Below, piece after piece: positions 41,635 through 51,461 of a stretch of 64,000 nucleotides of DNA. Location of the stretch: contig NZ_JABAGQ010000009.1 in NCBI RefSeq assembly GCF_012844225.1, forward strand, positions 124,001 to 188,000. The letters run 5' to 3'. This DNA comes from Rhodococcus sp. 105337 (GTDB taxonomy: Bacteria; Actinomycetota; Actinomycetes; Mycobacteriales; Mycobacteriaceae). Position 1 is the first letter of the stretch. Each line of letters opens with the position of its first letter. Below the pieces are notes generated by a model. That model searched no databases. It was given only the letters and a program-made list of their open reading frames with translations, and was not told the origin of the DNA. The position numbers and the translations under genes are program-made.

Positions 41635-42162
41635 TCACCACTTCGAGGGCGTGCCCCCGGTGTCGAAATCTCCTGCGTCGTGACGCATCGTCGCGAGGAT
41701 GCTCAGCAGCGTGTCGATCTGCTCGGACGGGATCCCGGGACGCGCGAACACTTCGGTGTTGAGTTTTTCCGTGGCCTCTATCGCGAGCGCGCGACCGTGG
41801 TCGGTGAGTTCGATGAGCGTTGCGCGCCGGTCGCTCGGGTGCGGGGTGCGTCGCACGAGACTCGCGGCCTCGAGTCGGTCGACCGCGTTGGTCACGCTCG
41901 TCGGGTGCACCTGCAGACGCGCACTGGCCTTCGCCATGGGGAGAGCCCCGGCCTTCGTGAAATGCAGCAGCGTCAGCAGTTCGTACCGGGCGAAGGTCAG
42001 ACCGAACGGTTTGAGGACCTCTTCGACACGGGCCATCATGATCTGCTGCGCACGCATCACCGAGGTCACCGCGGCCATGCCGTCCGCGACTTCGCCCCAG
42101 CCGTGGGCCACCCATTGACGGTGGGCTTCGGCGATGGGGTCGAGGGGAAGCGGTGCGGGCAT
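41635..42162 (-). CDS. MarR-family transcriptional regulator
   Basis: The 175-residue winged-helix protein has FGLTFARYELLTLLHFTKAGALPMAKASARLQVHPTSVTNAVDRLEAASLVRRTPHPSDRRATLIELT in the usual MarR arrangement (helix-turn-helix then the DRR wing). It lies 74 nt after the sulfotransferase gene on the same strand and is convergent with the valine operon. Its target and ligand are unknown. It could respond to an aromatic or acyl-CoA compound. Confidence 0.88.
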   Translation of the reverse strand: MPAPLPLDPIAEAHRQWVAHGWGEVADGMAAVTSVMRAQQIMMARVEEVLKPFGLTFARYELLTLLHFTKAGALPMAKASARLQVHPTSVTNAVDRLEAASLVRRTPHPSDRRATLIELTDHGRALAIEATEKLNTEVFARPGIPSEQIDTLLSILATMRHDAGDFDTGGTPSKW

Positions 42163-42236: not shown

Positions 42237-43385
42237 TCAGCGGTACGCATACGAGGGGAATCGCTCGTCGACGTCGCGCACCGACAACCCGAACTCCTCG
42301 AGTGTGTACTGATGGGCGGGTTTCCGGGCCCCGTTGCGACTCTCGTCGTGCAGCGATGTCATCGCGCGTTCGGCGCCGGCGGTGAACGGGATGCCGAACC
42401 GGTCGTACAGGGCGCCCACGCTGCCCAACGGGTCCGCCACGAAATCCCGGTAGTCGACATCGACGAATCGGGCGGGATCGTGACGGGCGCGTGCCCGGGT
42501 GAAGTCGTCGAAACCGCGTGCCCACAGGTCGAGCTGACTGCGGCCGATCGTCTCACCGGTGAAGGCCTCGGACCATCCCTCGGTGGCGTGCGCCGCGAGG
42601 CTGCACACGGAAGGAATCACCGTCCGGGGGTCGCGGTGTGTCACCACGATCAGTGCGTCCGGGTAGACGGTGAGGAGTTCGTCGAGCGCGAACAGGTGAC
42701 TCGGATTCTTGAGGACCCAGCGCTTGTCCGCGTCGGGAAGCCCGATGAGCTGGAGGTTCTTGCGGTGCCGGGCGTAGGCGCCGGTCCAGTCCTGCCCGGC
42801 GAGCCAGCGCGAGTACGTCGGCAGATTCGCGAGGCATTCGTACGAGATCGACCGGAACGACTGACGGAGCAGCTGCCAGCATTCCTCCACCTCCCCGGCC
42901 GACATGTAGTGCACACCCATGAACTCGGGATGCTCCACGTGGTGCTGGGCGAAGCCGGCCTCGATCCCCGCGAATACCGGGTTCTGTTCCCAGGTCTCAC
43001 GAGGCGGCCGGGGCTGGGGCATCTCGGTGAGCCACATCTCGAGGCCCTGATGCGCCGGGTCGGCCGCCAGGAGGCGGTGCAATGCGGTGGTGCCGGTGCG
43101 AGGCAGACCGGTGACGAAGATGGGTCGGGTGACCGGAACGTCCCGGTGCTCGGGATGCTGCGCCCAGGCGGCTTCCGAGAGCAGACGCGCGACCAGCGCA
43201 CCACGAAGGAACACCCGCGACATCTTGCTGCCGAGCGGGGTGAGTGTTTCGTCCCGCGCGTACGACTCGAGCAGTATCTCGAGTGCCTCGAGGTACTCGT
43301 CCTCGCCGAAATCCGTCAGGCCCGTCATGCGCGTCGCCGAGGCATGCAGGTCGTCGGTGGTGCCCACGGTGGTGCGTTCGCTCAT
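42237..43385 (-). CDS. PAPS-dependent sulfotransferase family protein (Rv3529c-like)
   Basis: The 382-residue protein has the Sulfotransfer_3-type PAPS 5'-phosphosulfate loop VTGLPRTGTTALHRLLAADP, with the strand-loop-helix near residues 90-110, and the 3'-phosphate-binding region in LIVVTHRDPRTVIPSVCSLA. It should move a sulfo group from PAPS to a hydroxyl, and the acceptor is unknown. It follows the SDR gene by 12 nt. The sulfotransferase, SDR and DUF1214 order matches what I recall for Rv3529c-Rv3530c-Rv3531c in M. tuberculosis, which lie beside cholesterol genes. Confidence 0.85.
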   Translation of the reverse strand: MSERTTVGTTDDLHASATRMTGLTDFGEDEYLEALEILLESYARDETLTPLGSKMSRVFLRGALVARLLSEAAWAQHPEHRDVPVTRPIFVTGLPRTGTTALHRLLAADPAHQGLEMWLTEMPQPRPPRETWEQNPVFAGIEAGFAQHHVEHPEFMGVHYMSAGEVEECWQLLRQSFRSISYECLANLPTYSRWLAGQDWTGAYARHRKNLQLIGLPDADKRWVLKNPSHLFALDELLTVYPDALIVVTHRDPRTVIPSVCSLAAHATEGWSEAFTGETIGRSQLDLWARGFDDFTRARARHDPARFVDVDYRDFVADPLGSVGALYDRFGIPFTAGAERAMTSLHDESRNGARKPAHQYTLEEFGLSVRDVDERFPSYAYR

Positions 43386-43397
43386 CTCGTATCCCGT

Positions 43398-44186
43398 TCA
43401 GTGGTGGTATTCGCCGCAGTTGACGTCGATGCACTGCCCGGTGATCGCCGACGCCATCGGTGACGCCAGGAAGATCACCGTGTCCGCGATCTCCTCGGTG
43501 GTCGGCAGGCGCCGCAGGTCGGAGGCCGCGGCGGTGTGCTCGTAGATCTGCTCGACGGTGGTGCCGTACTTCCCGGCCTGGTGCTCGAAGTACCCTCGAA
43601 GGGTTGGTCCCCAAATGTATCCCGGGGCAACAGAGTTGACCCGTACGCCGTGCGGCCCGAGTTCGGTGGCGAGGGACTGCGACATCGCCAGCAGCGCCGA
43701 CTTCGCGAGTTTGTAACTGCCGTAACGCTCTTGGGAATGACGCAGGACCATCGAGTTGATGTTGACGACCGAACCGTCCGATTCGGTGAGCGCGGGCGTG
43801 AACGAGCGGGTCAGCCGCAGCGCAGCGAGCACCGTCAGCTCCACGCTGTCACGGATCTGCTGGAAATCGGTGTTCGCCAACGGCTTCATCGACGGAACGG
43901 AGAATGCGTTGTTGACGAGAGTATCGACGCGACCGAACTCGCCCTCCGCCGCGTCGACCAGTTCCGAGACGGAATCGTCGTCGGTGATGTCGGTCGGTAC
44001 CGGCAGCGCGCGACGTCCCAGCGCCTCGACTTCCGCAGCCACCTTCTCGAGCCGTTCCCGGGTGCGGGCGGCAAGGACGACGTCGGCACCGTGCGACGCA
44101 CATCGCAGGGCGAGGGTGCTTCCCAGGCCGGGCCCCACACCGGAGATGACGACGACGCGATCCTCCAACAAGCCGGCGGCGCTCAT
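43398..44186 (-). CDS. Short-chain dehydrogenase/reductase (Rv3530c-like)
   Basis: The 262-residue SDR has the NAD(P) motif SGVGPGLGSTLALRCA, LVNNAFSVPS, the catalytic Ser in NINSMVLRHS and YGSYKLAK (Y-x-x-x-K). The cofactor loop has an Arg-rich VLAARTRERLEK, which suggests NADP. The steroid-type substrate is only inferred from context. ATG 44186 overlaps the stop of the DUF1214-like gene as ATGA. Confidence 0.9.
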   Translation of the reverse strand: MSAAGLLEDRVVVISGVGPGLGSTLALRCASHGADVVLAARTRERLEKVAAEVEALGRRALPVPTDITDDDSVSELVDAAEGEFGRVDTLVNNAFSVPSMKPLANTDFQQIRDSVELTVLAALRLTRSFTPALTESDGSVVNINSMVLRHSQERYGSYKLAKSALLAMSQSLATELGPHGVRVNSVAPGYIWGPTLRGYFEHQAGKYGTTVEQIYEHTAAASDLRRLPTTEEIADTVIFLASPMASAITGQCIDVNCGEYHH

Positions 44187-45349
44187 CCGAGCATCCGATC
44201 GGCGACGGCAGCCTGGCGTGCCCCGATGCGCGCGGCCCAGTCCTCGGGGGTGATGCGGTTCGACTCGTGGAACGGCAGCGCGCCGGGCAGTTCGTCGAAC
44301 GGGACGACCTGTGCCACCGGTCCGTCGGCAGGAGAAAGCTCGCGATCGAGCCGTTGCCAGCGGAACTGCAGGATGCCGCGGCTGCGCCCGAGGGTTTCCA
44401 CCCAGTTGGTGAGACCGGGATTGCGGGCCGACACCACGATCCGGACCATCCCGTCCGGATCGACCTGTGCCTGAGTGTTGTTCAGCGATGTCTGGTGATG
44501 GATGTACTCCAGCGAGATGTACCAGAGGCTTCCGATCTGGAAGCCCAGATACGGTGCGTCGGTCGCGGGCAGGGTCAACACCATCGCTTCGTCGTCGGCC
44601 AGGTCGAAATGACCCACCGACGAGTACTGGGTGTCGAGCCCGCCCGGTGTCCGCCGCGGTTCGGTGACGGTGTTGACCGGAAGCTTCAGGTAGAACCACT
44701 CGGGGAACTGCAGCCACGTCTTCACTCGCGAGACGAGGGCGCGACCGGCACGCTCGTACCGTGTCACCGCGTCCTGGCGGGTGAGCTCGGGAGGTGCCGT
44801 GCCGAGGGTGTCGAGGCGGTCGATGCGCAGGGTGCCGCGTCGCTGCGTCCAGTCGCTGTAGACCTCCCGGACAACGAGCTGGGACGATCCCGGCGCGAGC
44901 GTGAAGTAGTTGCGGTCGGGATCGCGTGGCCCGGGCCCGAACCGGACTTCGAAACTGCCGTCGTCCTCGATGCGCAGGGCGCGGTCGTCGAAGGCGGTGA
45001 CGTTGCCGGGTACCGCGGCGTCGGTGTAGTTGCCGGCGAGAACCTGGAAACTGAGGTCGCACGTGGTGCCGCGACGTCCGGTGACGACGTATTCGGCGTT
45101 GTCGCGCACCACCGCACCCCAGTACAGGGTGTCCGGGTTGTCGAGGCCCATCTTCGCGTACGGGCCGGTGCCGGTGACGAACACGGGATGGGTGCTGCTG
45201 TACGCCCACGTGGCGTGGACACACGCGGCGATCCCTCCGGCCAGGTAGCCGTAGCCCTCGGTGAGGTCGGCCTCGGTACGGATGTGCGGGGCGGTGGCGA
45301 CGATTTTTTCGGCCTCGGCTATCGCCGCGGTGAGTGGATCGGTGAGCAC
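44183..45349 (-). CDS. DUF1214-like protein (Rv3531c-like)
   Basis: The 388-residue protein has no signal peptide or membrane segment. It has PVFVTGTGPYAKMGLDNPD, RGTTCDLSFQVLAGNYTD and FTLAPGSSQLVVREVYSDW, then VGHFDLADDEAMVLTLPATDAPYLGFQIG, matching the DUF1214 family by memory. The GTG start at 45349 has AGGAG at 6-7 nt. It heads the minus-strand operon DUF1214-SDR-sulfotransferase. The reaction is unknown, and the neighbours suggest lipid or steroid modification. Confidence 0.78.
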   Translation of the reverse strand: MLTDPLTAAIAEAEKIVATAPHIRTEADLTEGYGYLAGGIAACVHATWAYSSTHPVFVTGTGPYAKMGLDNPDTLYWGAVVRDNAEYVVTGRRGTTCDLSFQVLAGNYTDAAVPGNVTAFDDRALRIEDDGSFEVRFGPGPRDPDRNYFTLAPGSSQLVVREVYSDWTQRRGTLRIDRLDTLGTAPPELTRQDAVTRYERAGRALVSRVKTWLQFPEWFYLKLPVNTVTEPRRTPGGLDTQYSSVGHFDLADDEAMVLTLPATDAPYLGFQIGSLWYISLEYIHHQTSLNNTQAQVDPDGMVRIVVSARNPGLTNWVETLGRSRGILQFRWQRLDRELSPADGPVAQVVPFDELPGALPFHESNRITPEDWAARIGARQAAVADRMLG

Positions 45350-45374
45350 GTCGATCTCCTGTGGTCCATATATG

Positions 45375-45387
45375 TACCGCTGCGGTA
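45375..45387. promoter_or_regulatory. Perfect palindrome TACCGC-T-GCGGTA, candidate IclR operator
   Basis: A 13-bp perfect palindrome lies in the 82-bp divergent gap between the DUF1214-like and IclR genes, next to an AT-rich TACATATATG block on the minus strand that could be the -10 of the minus operon. It is the best candidate for binding by the IclR protein. Confidence 0.55.
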
Positions 45388-45406
45388 GTCTCCGGTGCGC
45401 CGACGA

Positions 45407-45420
45407 TAGAACGTGTTCCA
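45407..45420. promoter_or_regulatory. KstR-like operator TAGAACGTGTTCCA
   Basis: The 14-mer fits the published KstR pattern T-N2-AAC-N2-GTT-N2-A at every fixed base. It sits 12 nt before the IclR ATG and 58 bp from the DUF1214-like start, so it could control both. KstR represses cholesterol catabolism genes in mycobacteria and rhodococci. Confidence 0.6.
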
Positions 45421-45431
45421 GGGAGGGGTCA

Positions 45432-46370
45432 ATGGTTCGTCGCAGTGACAGCGGCGAAGCGGGGATCGGAGTGCCCCTGCCGGGTGCCGCTCGACGTTCG
45501 CCGCCCACCGAGCGTGTCGTCCAGGTCCTCGATCATCTCGTCGCCCGGCCGGGTCTCAGGTTCGGACTCTCGGAGCTGGCGCGCGAACTCGGGCTGAGCA
45601 AGCCGACCTGCCTGGGCATACTCACCGCACTCACCGACGCGGGCTACCTCATCCGTGACCCGGCCGACAAGTCCTACGGCCTCGGCCCGGCGCTGATCGT
45701 CGCGGGCCGGGCCGCGCAGCGGGGGTTCGCGTCGGGACCGGTCGCACACCGCCACTTGGCTGCCCTGAGCTCCGAGTTCGGTGTGATGTGTACAGCGTCG
45801 GCGGTGGTCGGCGACCGGATCGCGATCCTCGACGTGGTCGGGGGAGCCGGCGCCGCCGCGGCCGCCCGCGTGGGGGAGGTCTACCCCTTCGCGCCGCCGG
45901 TCGGGCTCATGTACGTGCTGTGGGATACCGACGAACGTATCGAGCGGTGGCTGCGTCGCGAACCGACCCTGCCGGTGTCCGTCGATCGCGCACACCTGCG
46001 GCGCGTGATCGAGGAGTGCCGCCGCACCGGCTATCTCGTCGAGTCGCTCACCCGCGGCGGCCGGCGCCTCTACGCGCTGATGGCCGGTGTGGTGTCACAC
46101 GACCTGGCCCCCGATCTCCGGGAGATGCTCGCAGAACTGGTGTCGAGTCCGGGCGAACGAGTGCTGCTGCCCGCCGATCTGGACACGGAACGCACACATC
46201 CCGTCAACCTGATCGCCGCGCCCGCCTTCGACCCGGACGGTCATCAGTCGCTCGTGCTGGCACTTCATCTCGAACGGGAGGTCGACCGCGCGGAGGTCGA
46301 GCGATGCGGATCGGCATTGCTGAGAGCCGCCGAGGCCGTCACGGTGGACCTCGGGGGCCGGCGTCCGTAG
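45432..46370 (+). CDS. IclR-family transcriptional regulator
   Basis: The 312-residue protein has an N-terminal winged helix (RVVQVLDHLVARPGLRFGLSELARELGLSKPTCLGILTALTDAGYLIRDP) and a C-terminal GAF-like effector domain with AGRAAQRGFASGPVAHRHLAAL and the RRVIEECRRTGYLVESLTRGG helix. It starts at ATG 45432 behind GGGAGGGG. It is placed between the sulfotransferase operon and the PAPS genes, flanked on both sides by KstR-like sites. The effector is unknown. Confidence 0.9.
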   Translation: MVRRSDSGEAGIGVPLPGAARRSPPTERVVQVLDHLVARPGLRFGLSELARELGLSKPTCLGILTALTDAGYLIRDPADKSYGLGPALIVAGRAAQRGFASGPVAHRHLAALSSEFGVMCTASAVVGDRIAILDVVGGAGAAAAARVGEVYPFAPPVGLMYVLWDTDERIERWLRREPTLPVSVDRAHLRRVIEECRRTGYLVESLTRGGRRLYALMAGVVSHDLAPDLREMLAELVSSPGERVLLPADLDTERTHPVNLIAAPAFDPDGHQSLVLALHLEREVDRAEVERCGSALLRAAEAVTVDLGGRRP

Positions 46371-46402
46371 CGAGATCGGGCGTCGACAGCGAGATCGGGG
46401 CG

Positions 46403-46432
46403 TTGACCCGGAATTGAAACTCGTTCTATTCT
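46403..46432 (+). promoter_or_regulatory. Promoter of cysD with a KstR-like site between -35 and -10
   Basis: TTGACC (46403-46408), 18 bp, TATTCT (46427-46432) is a strong pair. The spacer contains TGAAACTCGTTCTA (46415-46428), again fitting T-N2-AAC-N2-GTT-N2-A at every fixed base. Just upstream is an imperfect 20-bp tandem duplication (46369-46387 and 46388-46407), both copies beginning AGCGAGATCGGG. Confidence 0.65.
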
Positions 46433-46497
46433 GTGGCAGTCCTTTTCGACCGACTCGGTACAAATATGGACCGAGAACTCCGGGCTGGGAGCGCACG

Positions 46498-47454
46498 ATG
46501 ACGACGGTGCCGCCACGACGACCATCTCGGGACGGTGCACGTCGGGATCCCTCCTACGAGCTCAGCCTGCTCGGCGCCCTCGAAGCCGAGTCCGTGCACA
46601 TCTTCCGCGAGGTCGCCGCGACCTTCGCGAGACCCGTGCTGTTGTTCTCCGGCGGCAAGGACTCGGCGGTGATGCTCCACCTCGCGACGAAGGCGTTCTG
46701 GCCGGCGCCGCCGCCGTTCCCCGTCCTGCACATCGACACCGGACACAACTTCGACGAGGTGATCGAGTTCCGCGACCGGACGGTCGCGCACCGGGGAGTT
46801 CGCCTGGTGACCGCCTCGGTCCAGGATGATCTCGATGCCGGACGGGCCGTGGAGGACGCCGGGCCCCGCGCGAGTCGTAACCGGCTGCAGACCGGAACCC
46901 TTCTGCGGGCGTTGAGGGACGGAGGATTCGACGCCGTGTTCGGCGGCGCCCGCCGCGACGAGGAGAAGGCGCGCGCCAAAGAACGCGTCTTCAGCCTGCG
47001 CGACGAGTTCGGGCAGTGGGACCCGAAGGCCCAGCGCCCCGAACTGTGGCACCTCTACAACGGCCGGCACCGCGTGGGCGAGCATGTCCGGGTCTTCCCG
47101 CTGTCGAACTGGACCGAACTCGACATCTGGCGATACATCCGGGACGAGCGCGTCGACCTGCCGTCCCTGTACTACGCCCACCGGCGTCCGGTGGTCGAGC
47201 GAGACGGAATGCTGCTCGCGCACACCCGTTTCCTCACCCTGCTGCCCGGCGAAACCCCCCGCGACACCCTGGTGCGATTCCGGACGGTGGGCGATGCCAC
47301 CTGCACCGGATGCGTCGAATCCGCGGCCACCACGGCCGACGAGGTGGTCACCGAAGTCGCGGCGAGCCGCGTCACCGAGCGAGGCGCGACCCGCGCCGAC
47401 GACCGCATCTCCGAAGCCGGAATGGAAGACCGGAAGAAAGAGGGTTACTTCTGA
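46498..47454 (+). CDS. cysD: Sulfate adenylyltransferase subunit 2
   Basis: The 318-residue protein belongs to the PP-loop ATPases, with [16 protein letters not shown] near residues 45-60, [16 protein letters not shown], and [18 protein letters not shown]. The long C-terminal part ends with [15 protein letters not shown], the typical CysD end. It makes APS from ATP and sulfate together with the CysN GTPase, which overlaps by 1 nt. No cysH (PAPS reductase) is nearby, so the APS/PAPS here may serve sulfation rather than cysteine synthesis. Confidence 0.95.
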
Positions 47455-49292
47455 TGCCGGGTCCGCTGCGCATCGCCACCGCCGGCAGCGTCGACGACGG
47501 CAAATCCACCCTGATCGGACGGCTCCTGTTCGACTCGAAGGCGGTGTTCGAAGACCAGCTCGACGCGGTGACCCGCACCAGTCACGACCGCGGTGCCGAC
47601 CGCGCCGACCTGTCGCTGCTCACCGACGGCCTGCGGGCGGAACGGGAGCAGGGCATCACGATCGACGTGGCCTACCGATACTTCGCCACGGCGAACCGGA
47701 CGTTCGTCATCGCCGACACTCCGGGCCACGAGCAGTACACCCGGAACATGGTCACCGGCGCGTCCACCGCGGATCTCGCGCTCGTCCTCGTCGACGCCCG
47801 CAACGGCATCGTCCGCCAGACGCGCCGCCATGCCTTCCTCGCCGGTCTGCTCGGCGTGCGCCACGTGGTCCTGTGCATCAACAAGATGGACCTGGTGGAC
47901 TGGTCGCAGCAGCGGTACGACGAACTGTGCGACGAATTCCGGCAGTTCGCGACAAAACTCGACATTCCCGATCTCACGTTCGTTCCCGTCTCCGCGCTGC
48001 ACGGCGACAACGTCGTGTCCCGGACGGCGAACATGCCGTGGTACGAGGGGACTTCGCTGTTGCACCACCTCGAACAGGTGCACGTCGCGTCCGACACCAA
48101 TCTCATCGATGCGCGCCTGCCCGTGCAGTACGTGATCCGGCCGGCACACAGCGGCGATCGCCCCGGCTTCCGCGGATACGCCGGGACCGTCGCGGGCGGC
48201 GGATTCGCGCCCGGAGACGAAGTCGTGGTGCTTCCCTCCGGCTTCGGCACGCACGTGCGCAACATCTGGGGACCGGGCGGCACCGCGCTCGATCACGCGT
48301 ATGCGGGCGCCGCGGTGTGCATCGACCTCGAGGACGACCTCGATGTGGGCCGCGGAGACATGCTGTGCAGGCCCAACAACCGGCCACTCGCCGGACACGA
48401 GATAGACGCGATGGTGTGCTGGCTCGACGACCGCGCCGCGCTTGACCCGGACGCCCGCTACGTCCTGCTGCACACCACCCGGTCCGTCACCGCGCGGGTG
48501 GTGCGTCTGGACTACCGGCTCGACGTCGATACCCTGCACCGCGACGAGACAGCCACTTCCCTGGCTCTCAACGACATCGGGCGGGTGCAACTGCGAACGC
48601 AGCAACCGTTGTTGTTCGACCCGTACCGGCGCAACCGGACCACCGGCAGTTTCGTACTCGTCGACGACAGGACCGGCAACACCGTCGCAGCCGGGATGAT
48701 CACCGGCCCGACTCTCGGTGAGGCCGGGGTGGTGTGGCACTCGGCGGAAGTCGCGCGCGCCGACCGGGGACGATCGGGTGCGACCGTGTGGCTCACCGGG
48801 CTGTCCGCGTCGGGCAAGTCCACGGTGGCCGTCGAACTCGAGCGCCGCCTGATCGCGGAGGGCATCCCCGCCTACCGCCTCGACGGTGACAACCTGCGGC
48901 ACGGACTCAATTCCGATCTCGGGTTCGGCCCGGCCGACCGGGCGGAGAACGTCCGCCGCGTAGGAGCGGTCGCCCAGATGATGGCCGACGCCGGCCTGGT
49001 CGCGATCTGCGCGCTCATCAGTCCGTACCGCGCCGACCGCGAACGCATCCGGCAGCAGCACGAGGACGCCGGCATTCCGTTCGTCGAGGTGTTCGTCGAT
49101 ACACCGCTGGCGGAATGCGAAGCCCGCGACCCGAAAGGCATGTACGCGCGCGCCCGGGCGGGGGAGCTGACCGGGTTCACCGGAATCGACGACCCGTACG
49201 AACCGCCCCGTGCCCCGGAGCTGGTCCTGCGCCCCGATGACGGCACCGCGACAGCCCAGGCAGCGCTCGTCGTGCAATTGTTGACGGCATGA
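47454..49292 (+). CDS. cysNC: Sulfate adenylyltransferase subunit 1 fused to APS kinase
   Basis: The 612-residue bifunctional protein has a CysN GTPase (GSVDDGKST at 11-19, [20 protein letters not shown]) with EF-Tu-like domains to about residue 430. An APS kinase domain follows, with its P-loop [10 protein letters not shown] near 449-457, the [10 protein letters not shown] motif, [12 protein letters not shown] and the [12 protein letters not shown] lid. It drives sulfate adenylation with GTP and phosphorylates APS to PAPS, as in mycobacteria. The start shares one base with the cysD stop. Confidence 0.95.
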
Positions 49293-50419
49293 CCGACGAC
49301 GCCCACCACGAAGACGCCCGACTCGCTGCCGAGATAGCCTCAGGCGCAGGAGAATTGTTGTTGACCGTGCGAGCGATCGAGGGTGATGCCCTCGGTGGTC
49401 GTGAGCTGGGCCGTCGCGGCGACCACGCGGCCGACACCTACATCCTCGAGAGGCTCGCCGCGGCGCGTCCGGGGGATGCGGTGCTCTCCGAGGAATCCGC
49501 CGACGATCCGTCCCGGGTGGACGCGGACCGCGTCTGGATCGTCGACCCCCTGGACGGCTCGAAGGAATACGGTATGCCCGGCCATAGCGACTGGGCGGTG
49601 CACGTCGCACTGTGGGAAGCCGGTAAGGGGCTCACCGCGGGAGCGGTCGCACAACCGGCCATCGGCGTCGTACACAGCACCGACGATGCGGCGCCGGCAC
49701 CGCGACCGATGCGCCGGCGCCCCCGCATCGTCATCAGCGGAAGCAGGCCACCCGCGTTCGTGTTCGACCTCGCACGCGACCTCGGTGCGGACCTGATCCG
49801 GATGGGGTCGGCCGGCGCGAAGGCGATGGCGGTGGTCCGTGGAGAGGCCGACGCCTATATCCACGCGGGCGGCCAGTGGGAATGGGACTCGGCGGCACCG
49901 GTCGCGGTCGCACAGGCCGCGGGCCTGCACTGTGCCCGGATCGACGGGAGCGCACTGGAATACAACCGCCCGCACCCATACCTGCCCGACCTGGTGATCT
50001 GTCGCGCCGACTGGGCGCCGGCCGTGATGGCTGCTCTCGCCGAGCATGCCACCGCGCCCGGGGAGAGCCCGCGGGTGGCGATGGCCCGTGCGTACATCCG
50101 GTCCCTCATCCGGCACGACGCCACCGACGTGCGTCTCGCGGCAGATGCGTGGCGGGTGGAGAACGGGCAGCGCACCGGCGACAGCGGCGCGGAGATCCGT
50201 CACCGACTCGAACACGGCGCCGAGTACCTGCCCATTCGGAGGGTGCGCGACCTGCAGTTCCACGAGTGGCACCACAGCGTCGTCGCACGCTTCGTGCTCG
50301 ATGTCGCAGCGGGTCCGACGTCCGAGACGTCCGTGTCGGTCACCGAGCACTTCGAGATTCCGGCGGGGGAGATCCGCTCGATCGTGGCGATCATCGAACC
50401 CCTTCCTCAAAATAGTTGA
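49289..50419 (+). CDS. cysQ: CysQ phosphatase fused to a C-terminal NTF2/SnoaL-like domain
   Basis: The 376-residue protein has an inositol monophosphatase-fold CysQ domain (about 1-255): the metal motifs LSEES and [14 protein letters not shown], and [19 protein letters not shown]. This removes the 3'-phosphate from PAP or PAPS and so relieves PAP inhibition of sulfotransferase. From about residue 262 a new domain begins ([20 protein letters not shown], then [16 protein letters not shown] and RFVLDV), which looks NTF2/SnoaL-like. CysQ proteins usually lack it. The reading frame is continuous and base composition is uniform. ATG 49289 overlaps the cysNC stop. Confidence 0.88.
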
Positions 50420-50471: not shown

Positions 50472-51461
50472 ATGACCGAAGCGCGCGATATCGGAGACGG
50501 CATACATGTCGTACCGGTCCCGGTGGCAGACCTGCCCGTCGGAGACACCCAGGTCTACGTGATGGAATCGCCTGGCGGAGTGGTCCTCGTGGACGTCGGA
50601 TGGGACGACGACAGGTCCTGGGCGGCCCTGCAGGCCGGGCTGGCGGTCGCCGGGTTGTCGGTGACCGACGTCGAAGGCGTGGTGGTCACCCACTTCCACC
50701 CCGATCACGTGGGCCTCACCGGCAGAATCCGTGAGGCGTCGGGGTGTTGGGTCGCCATGAACGAGGCCGATTTCGCGCACCTCGAGGCGATGACCTCCGG
50801 AGCCGACCGGAGCGCGGAGGAGGCGGAATTGCTGCGCCGCGCCGGGGCGCCCGAACCCGAGATCGAACGGCACAGGGAAACGGCGGTCTACCCGCCCGGC
50901 CGTCCGGACATCCTTCCCGACCGCAAACTCGCGGCGGACGAGGTGATCCCCCTGGCGGGCCGCTCGTTGCGCACCGTCCTGACTCCGGGGCACACGGCCG
51001 GCCACGCGTGTTTCCTTCTCGAGGACCACGGAGTGCTGTTCAGCGGAGACCATGTGCTGGCCACCACCACCCCGCACGTCGGTGAATTCGACTTCCCGCT
51101 CCCGGAGCGCGACGCGCTCGGCGAGTATCTGGACTCGCTGCGGGCCGTGTCGACACTGCCCGTCCGGCGGACCCTGCCCGCGCACCGTCAGGAGATCGAC
51201 GATCTGCCCCGCCGGGCCGGGGAACTCATCGCGCACCACGACCAGCGCCTCGACGACCTCTACGACGCGTTCGGCGACGAAGAACTCACGCTCTGGGAGG
51301 CCACGTCGAGGATGCGCTGGTACCGCCCGTGGGACGAGACGCCCATGCAGGGCAAGAAGATGGCACTCGCGGAAGGGTCCGCACACGTGCGGCAGCTCAT
51401 CGAGCGAGGCCGGGTCCGCCGACTGCCCGGCACCGAACCGGCCCGGTTCGCGCGCGCCTGA
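50472..51461 (+). CDS. Metallo-beta-lactamase-fold hydrolase
   Basis: The 329-residue protein has the MBL metal motif THFHPDHVG near residue 76, the later His in LTPGHTAGHACFLLEDHGVLFSGDHV and an Asp in the same region. The C-terminal 60 residues (SRMRWYRPWDETPMQGKKMALAEGSAHVRQL) form a helical extension seen in glyoxalase II-like thioesterase relatives. GGGAGGAATCACGG precedes the ATG. The substrate could be a thioester. It is close to cysQ but has its own gap and palindrome. Confidence 0.88.
   Translation: MTEARDIGDGIHVVPVPVADLPVGDTQVYVMESPGGVVLVDVGWDDDRSWAALQAGLAVAGLSVTDVEGVVVTHFHPDHVGLTGRIREASGCWVAMNEADFAHLEAMTSGADRSAEEAELLRRAGAPEPEIERHRETAVYPPGRPDILPDRKLAADEVIPLAGRSLRTVLTPGHTAGHACFLLEDHGVLFSGDHVLATTTPHVGEFDFPLPERDALGEYLDSLRAVSTLPVRRTLPAHRQEIDDLPRRAGELIAHHDQRLDDLYDAFGDEELTLWEATSRMRWYRPWDETPMQGKKMALAEGSAHVRQLIERGRVRRLPGTEPARFARA

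Follow-up and report, generated by a model that had tools for sequence, protein, structure and literature searches.

Paired KstR-type motifs and probable IclR operators at divergent sulfotransferase and PAPS-synthesis operons of Rhodococcus sp. 105337

The repressor KstR is released by sterol catabolites, which act as its inducers. The closest described relative of the locus discussed here is the Rv3531c/Rv3532 unit of M. tuberculosis where, in the passages available from Kendall 2007 (PMC1995591), KstR binding was positive in EMSA, and expression of the M. smegmatis gene MSMEG_5932 was about 6-fold derepressed in a kstR mutant. The same passages report binding for 12 of the 13 M. tuberculosis motifs assayed, while a matching site at Rv0223c gave no KstR binding in vitro; cysD does not figure in the published motif table. 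In excerpts of two other sources Rv3530c is listed as a possible oxidoreductase (PMC6429209) and Rv3529c is named sulfotransferase Stf1 (PMC8882603). A sulfotransferase operon is part of the mycobacterial sterol regulon; these passages give no metabolic role for it. A second point of comparison comes from R. qingshengii IGTS8, for which the accessible text of PMC8557817 assigns CysD1N1 to assimilation and CysN2C-D2, located beside the sulfotransferase Stf0, to the formation of PAPS.

The window, i.e. the whole 64-kb stretch of Rhodococcus sp. 105337 DNA analysed here, contains two divergent operons around a gene for an IclR-family regulator (45432..46370, plus strand; 34.1 bits with Pfam HTH_IclR, cut-off 22). 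To its left, on the minus strand, lie the genes for a DUF1214-like protein (44183..45349), a short-chain dehydrogenase (43398..44186; PRK07890, 419 bits, cut-off 258) and a sulfotransferase (42237..43385) that reaches 213 bits on Pfam Sulfotransfer_3 (PF13469, cut-off 27). The latter also aligns at 542 bits with PDB 2zq5, which we take to be Stf1 of M. tuberculosis. An earlier note on this DNA had called the group a DUF1214-SDR-sulfotransferase operon, a label that is appropriate for its second and third members; the first remains just below the Pfam DUF1214 (PF06742) cut-off with 23.2 bits versus 25 while giving 116.5 bits with PDB 6ans, hence our use of "DUF1214-like". On the plus strand the IclR gene is followed by those for CysD, the small subunit of sulfate adenylyltransferase (46498..47454; TIGR02039, 453.6 bits, cut-off 396.6), and CysNC, the large subunit fused to APS kinase (47454..49292; PRK05506, 926.6 bits, cut-off 715; apsK, 220.3 bits, cut-off 138.7), so that both components of a PAPS-forming complex score above their curated cut-offs. 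The operon continues with a CysQ-like protein of the inositol-monophosphatase family (49289..50419, plus strand; Pfam Inositol_P, 100 bits), which obtains 92.5 bits on the CysQ model TIGR01331, below the cut-off of 228.8, and which is probably a PAP phosphatase. A MarR-family regulator gene (41635-42162) downstream of the sulfotransferase gene is kept next to the cluster in several Rhodococcus loci, and a metallo-beta-lactamase-fold protein is encoded immediately after the CysQ-like gene (50472-51461).

Given the annotations of Rv3530c and Rv3529c in the portions of PMC6429209 and PMC8882603 available, the left operon corresponds to the known KstR-bound unit, Rv3531c-Rv3529c, an equation made by gene order and gene names and not by sequence. 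The two have in common, as far as the excerpts of PMC1995591 describe it, the same 14-bp palindrome over the promoter of what is apparently the same three-gene operon. The window differs in having an IclR gene across the divergent gap, a second KstR-type site at the PAPS operon and an additional palindrome at each promoter. Control of the mycobacterial sulfotransferase unit by KstR is known from that work; KstR at a PAPS operon and the pairing of operators would be new. Neither KstR control of a PAPS operon nor paired KstR-IclR operators turned up in the literature searched by title or abstract start. The terms KstR and cysD do occur together in PMC7846781, PMC2151136, PMC9283954 and PMC3916317, by their titles studies of M. 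tuberculosis. Sterol expression data for cysD or the sulfotransferase were looked for in PMC6593523 and PMC4881515, where the terms in question do not occur, and the main text of PMC3388012, a comparative paper that includes KstR sites, mentions neither cysD, cysN, a sulfotransferase nor Rv3531c.

It had been suggested in the earlier note that sulfate activation as such might be switched on by sterols. A CysD-CysN locus is indeed present, but it constitutes a second, PAPS-forming copy, judged by the gene content of the two sets. The genome encodes another CysD, 63% identical to that of the window, in a run together with open reading frames carrying APS-reductase signatures (CCRLRK, SIGCAPCTS, KTECGLH; compare PMC8557817), after which this cysD lies, and a sulfite-reductase-like open reading frame. 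The CysN of this set ends after 444 residues and has no kinase domain. By these features this other cysD/cysN set is likely the assimilatory one. Of the 18 genomes of the genus with an assimilatory cysD, the 16 whose locus was read all lack an exact KstR motif at this gene. That growth on sterols would turn on sulfate activation for ordinary assimilation, i.e. cysteine supply, instead of sulfation might be argued from the fact that APS, the CysD-CysN product, is a precursor shared by both pathways. However, the CysN of the window is fused to an APS kinase and a separate assimilatory run free of KstR sites exists, which makes such a role in general sulfur assimilation highly improbable. The authors of the IGTS8 study divided the two sets in the same way, according to the accessible part of PMC8557817. 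Their CysN2C-D2 resembles the present CysD-CysNC pair as a PAPS-forming copy beside a sulfotransferase and apart from the assimilatory CysD1N1; it differs in being described as induced on dibenzothiophene and in the family name of its sulfotransferase, and the excerpt makes no link to KstR or sterols. A third class of cysD, about 50% identical to that of the window, occurs in five genomes of the genus (G004, G010, G011, G012, G016), most of them without a linked cysD.

The KstR-type consensus TNNAACNNGTTNNA is matched exactly by operator 1, TAGAACGTGTTCCA (45407..45420), which lies 11 bp ahead of the start codon of the IclR gene, and by operator 2, TGAAACTCGTTCTA (46415..46428), in front of cysD, both without an assigned strand. 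The earlier note had claimed an exact fit for the two, and this is borne out: no other matches occur in the window, compared to an average of 0.14 expected from shuffled windows. On a position matrix, the kind of check it had proposed for the genome, operators 1 and 2 rank as the best two positions of the window (scores of 24.6 and 16.6), with the third position at 10.4. The matrix derives from 47 published mycobacterial instances, 43 of them distinct in sequence and used for training, which was done on both strands with no sites left out; on this scale operator 1 equals or exceeds 36 of the 43 training sites while operator 2 does so for only two, which is low among known sites. The arm and the centre of operator 2 are unusual for mycobacterial KstR sites. 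In the whole genome (4.46 Mb) there are 33 matches to TNNAACNNGTTNNA versus 13 to the reversed pattern. Several of the 33 fall inside predicted genes, and several of those score low on the matrix; others are located in the intergenic region that separates kstR from an acyl-CoA dehydrogenase gene, upstream of a KshA gene and in the gap between a P450 gene and a steroid 3-ketoacyl-CoA thiolase gene. The 13 reversed matches and the two of 100 shuffled windows that also reach two matches would be what speaks for pure chance, an explanation to which we give practically no weight, as conservation, promoter position and spacing speak strongly against it.

As to promoter position, a consensus scan of 45330-46520 yields two promoter-like sites and no others, where 0.1 would be expected; each belongs to one of the divergent operons. 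P1 (TTGACC-18-TATCGT; 45403..45432, minus strand) precedes the operon of the DUF1214-like protein, dehydrogenase and sulfotransferase; it is conserved in the alignment and its −35 hexamer touches the IclR start codon. P2 (TTGACC-18-TATTCT; 46403..46432, plus strand) precedes cysD-cysNC-cysQ-like. At both, the KstR-type motif sits in the 18-bp spacer and runs two bases into the −10 hexamer, a promoter overlap suited to repression. Operator 2 had been described as lying exactly between −35 and −10, which is correct for the spacer except for these two overlapping bases. In the 14 species of the genus with a linked cysD, operator 2 is kept together with −35 and −10. A comparison of their cysD promoters shows all 6 columns of the −35 hexamer to be invariant, and likewise 13 of the 14 columns of the KstR motif, versus 1 of 28 columns in the upstream DNA.

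A KstR orthologue that could bind these sites is encoded at L011:802-1458. It obtains 333 bits (curated cut-off 280), aligns with structures of KstR from M. tuberculosis at 282-286 bits and has a nearly identical helix-turn-helix. The genome also encodes a KstR-like paralogue (L020:3318-3974), 44% identical to KstR, which gets 197 bits on the KstR model, below the cut-off, and whose recognition helix is almost identical to that of KstR. It has a TNNAACNNGTTNNA site of its own (L020:4089-4102) 114 bp before the gene; the next gene downstream of this site codes for a FAD-binding protein of the PRK07121 group. The paralogue is found (189-201 bits) in 17 of the 18 genomes of the genus, the exception being G010, an assembly that is 75% complete. 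It may control another set of steroid genes and could also use operators 1 and 2. Were it the main user of both, sensing another class of steroid, the near-identical helix, its own site, its wide occurrence and the unusual arm and centre of operator 2 would fit. We regard this as unlikely, because operator 1 is near-ideal for KstR, KstR binding to the M. tuberculosis counterpart of this operator is described in PMC1995591, and Mycobacterium loci carry ideal KstR sites. The KstR reading of the earlier note is supported in part, by the presence of the orthologue, the published counterpart of operator 1 and the conservation of operator 2, with three amendments: the separate PAPS copy, the paralogue and a second palindrome at each promoter which it had missed.

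This palindrome, GGTNCANATNTGNACC, was revealed on the downstream side of each promoter by aligning P1 with P2. The first copy, GGTCCATATATGTACC (45363..45378), lies between P1 and the start of the DUF1214-like gene, the second, GGTACAAATATGGACC (46457..46472), between P2 and the start of cysD, again with no strand assigned. These are the only two matches to GGTNCANATNTGNACC in the 4.46-Mb genome, and the reversed pattern has none. The gap to the KstR motif is 28 bp at both promoters, or 43 bp between the two centres, some four helical turns. The 18 genomes of the genus together contain 30 matches (two for the reversed pattern), 28 of which are at this locus, with both palindromes in 13 genomes and one each in G015 and G016; the two stray matches away from the locus are in G003 and G011.

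A wider set of DUF1214-like loci, from named organisms, consists of the best 80 among 574 relatives of a single query; these loci are not independent, and some come from species that are also represented in the genus genomes. Here a palindrome precedes the DUF1214-like gene in 53 of the 55 loci with an adjacent IclR gene versus 1 of the 25 lacking one (Fisher P 5e-17, calculated on loci that are not independent). For this count an IclR gene was taken as adjacent from 45% identity upwards, and a palindrome was accepted with one mismatch or none inside the 160 bp next to the DUF1214-like start. Exceptions to the rule are L109 and L113, whose palindromes are of a related, GTTCCATATNTGGAAC-like form and which lack a KstR site, and L119, whose contig stops 38 bp short of the gene. 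At P2, the palindrome is present in 27 of 33 loci with at most one mismatch and in 31 of 33 with at most two, counting those among the best 80 in which IclR and cysD are at least 60 bp apart. Since its presence tracks the adjacent IclR gene, the palindrome is probably the operator of the IclR protein. The clusters of L109 and L113 are paralogous, and their GTTCCATATNTGGAAC-type palindromes look as if the operator had changed along with the IclR paralogue.

The best NCBIfam relatives of the window IclR protein are BhcR and PcaR/PcaU, with which it shares the HTH_IclR domain; its 26 and 22 bits, where 350 and 285 would be required, place it outside both groups. SRTF2, as described in the part of PMC7062782 available, is similar in being a predicted IclR-family regulator that is sterol-induced and located beside a ketosteroid dehydrogenase gene, and differs in its gene context. 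Orthologues of the window protein are present in 15 of the 18 genomes of the genus (71-100% identity). Operator 1 is kept in all 15 of these loci; in 14 of them cysD follows, and each of these carries an exact KstR motif at the positions of operators 1 and 2. In G016 the first motif is present and no cysD lies within 1.5 kb after the IclR gene.

In our view the data are best summarized by a sulfation module controlled by KstR and the IclR protein, in which CysD-CysNC would make PAPS for the divergent sulfotransferase operon, a reading that we consider likely from the arrangement of genes and sites. In the absence of sterol, KstR would block access of RNA polymerase to P1 and P2; sterol catabolites would load KstR, and both promoters would open. 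The IclR protein, predicted to bind just downstream of the start point, would probably exert a second, local check by repressing until a substrate or product of the module is sensed, though proteins of the IclR family can also activate. Once expressed, the right operon would supply PAPS through CysD and CysNC and probably remove PAP through the CysQ-like protein, while the left operon would consume PAPS. PAPS synthesis being encoded in one operon and the sulfotransferase in the other, the module is expected to make a sulfated compound. The cell thus probably sulfates something while feeding on sterols. This product, presumably steroid-derived, would be made during growth on sterols from a PAPS supply of its own, apart from assimilation. 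That the sulfotransferase is tied to its own PAPS source in Rhodococcus and Nocardia relatives, with matching operators at the two promoters in Rhodococcus, suggests its use as a sulfation enzyme in sterol metabolism. The IclR protein would be a co-regulator with a very specific operator, and its ligand would point to the substrate. More tentatively, with somewhat less than an even chance, the scheme may extend to a steroid sulfation branch in sterol-degrading Mycobacteriales in which KstR, joined in most lineages with linked PAPS genes by a local IclR protein that senses a substrate or product of sulfation, would jointly switch on PAPS synthesis and the sulfotransferase. If this is true, Stf1 (Rv3529c) of the mycobacterial sterol regulon would get a steroid or steroid-derived substrate.

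The KstR sites vary among the best 80 of 574 relatives. One is present at P1 in 67 of the 80 DUF1214-like loci. At P2, it is found in 24 of the 33 loci with IclR and cysD at least 60 bp apart and in none of the 15 where the two genes are closer and look co-transcribed. In this set the arrangement with two promoters, each having both operators, is usual in Rhodococcus and Prescottella. In Nocardia and some others IclR and cysD are less than 60 bp apart, and the divergent gap has one KstR site and one palindrome that might act on both sides. Loci of the Mycobacteroides type, namely L095, L096, L098 and L100, have palindromes at both promoters and a one-mismatch KstR site of the same build at P2, while that at P1 is absent. 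The exact site is gone at P2 in L070, L078 and L084 though the locus is kept, and at P1 in L081. These losses, together with the Mycobacteroides-type loci, indicate that double KstR control is not indispensable. The low matrix score of operator 2 and the unbound matching site at Rv0223c (PMC1995591) also weigh against the proposed scheme.

In L070 and L078 (R. xishaensis and R. spongiicola) the cysD promoter and the IclR palindrome are kept whereas the KstR motif in the spacer is lost; the two species offer a natural test of KstR-free control. One might conclude from this persisting palindrome, and from the low matrix score of operator 2, that cysD is really under IclR only, with operator 2 as a relic or an incidental promoter overlap. 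The invariance of operator 2 over the 14 species, and full palindromes such as TAGAACGCGTTCTA at the orthologous P2 of other Rhodococcus species (L069, L075, L082), speak against it, and we think it quite unlikely. Joint control by KstR and the IclR protein remains the preferred reading for the window.

In Mycobacterium loci such as L116 the three genes are present along with the KstR site, and no cysDNC is linked to them. Conversely, seven clusters (L109, L113, L114, L117, L120, L125 and L135) combine these three genes with cysDNC and have no KstR site, so the module exists outside sterol control too; they support the functional pairing of cysDNC with the three genes. In the five Nocardia clusters, L114, L117, L120, L125 and L135, the genes for CysD, CysNC, the DUF1214-like protein, the dehydrogenase and the sulfotransferase are co-directional.
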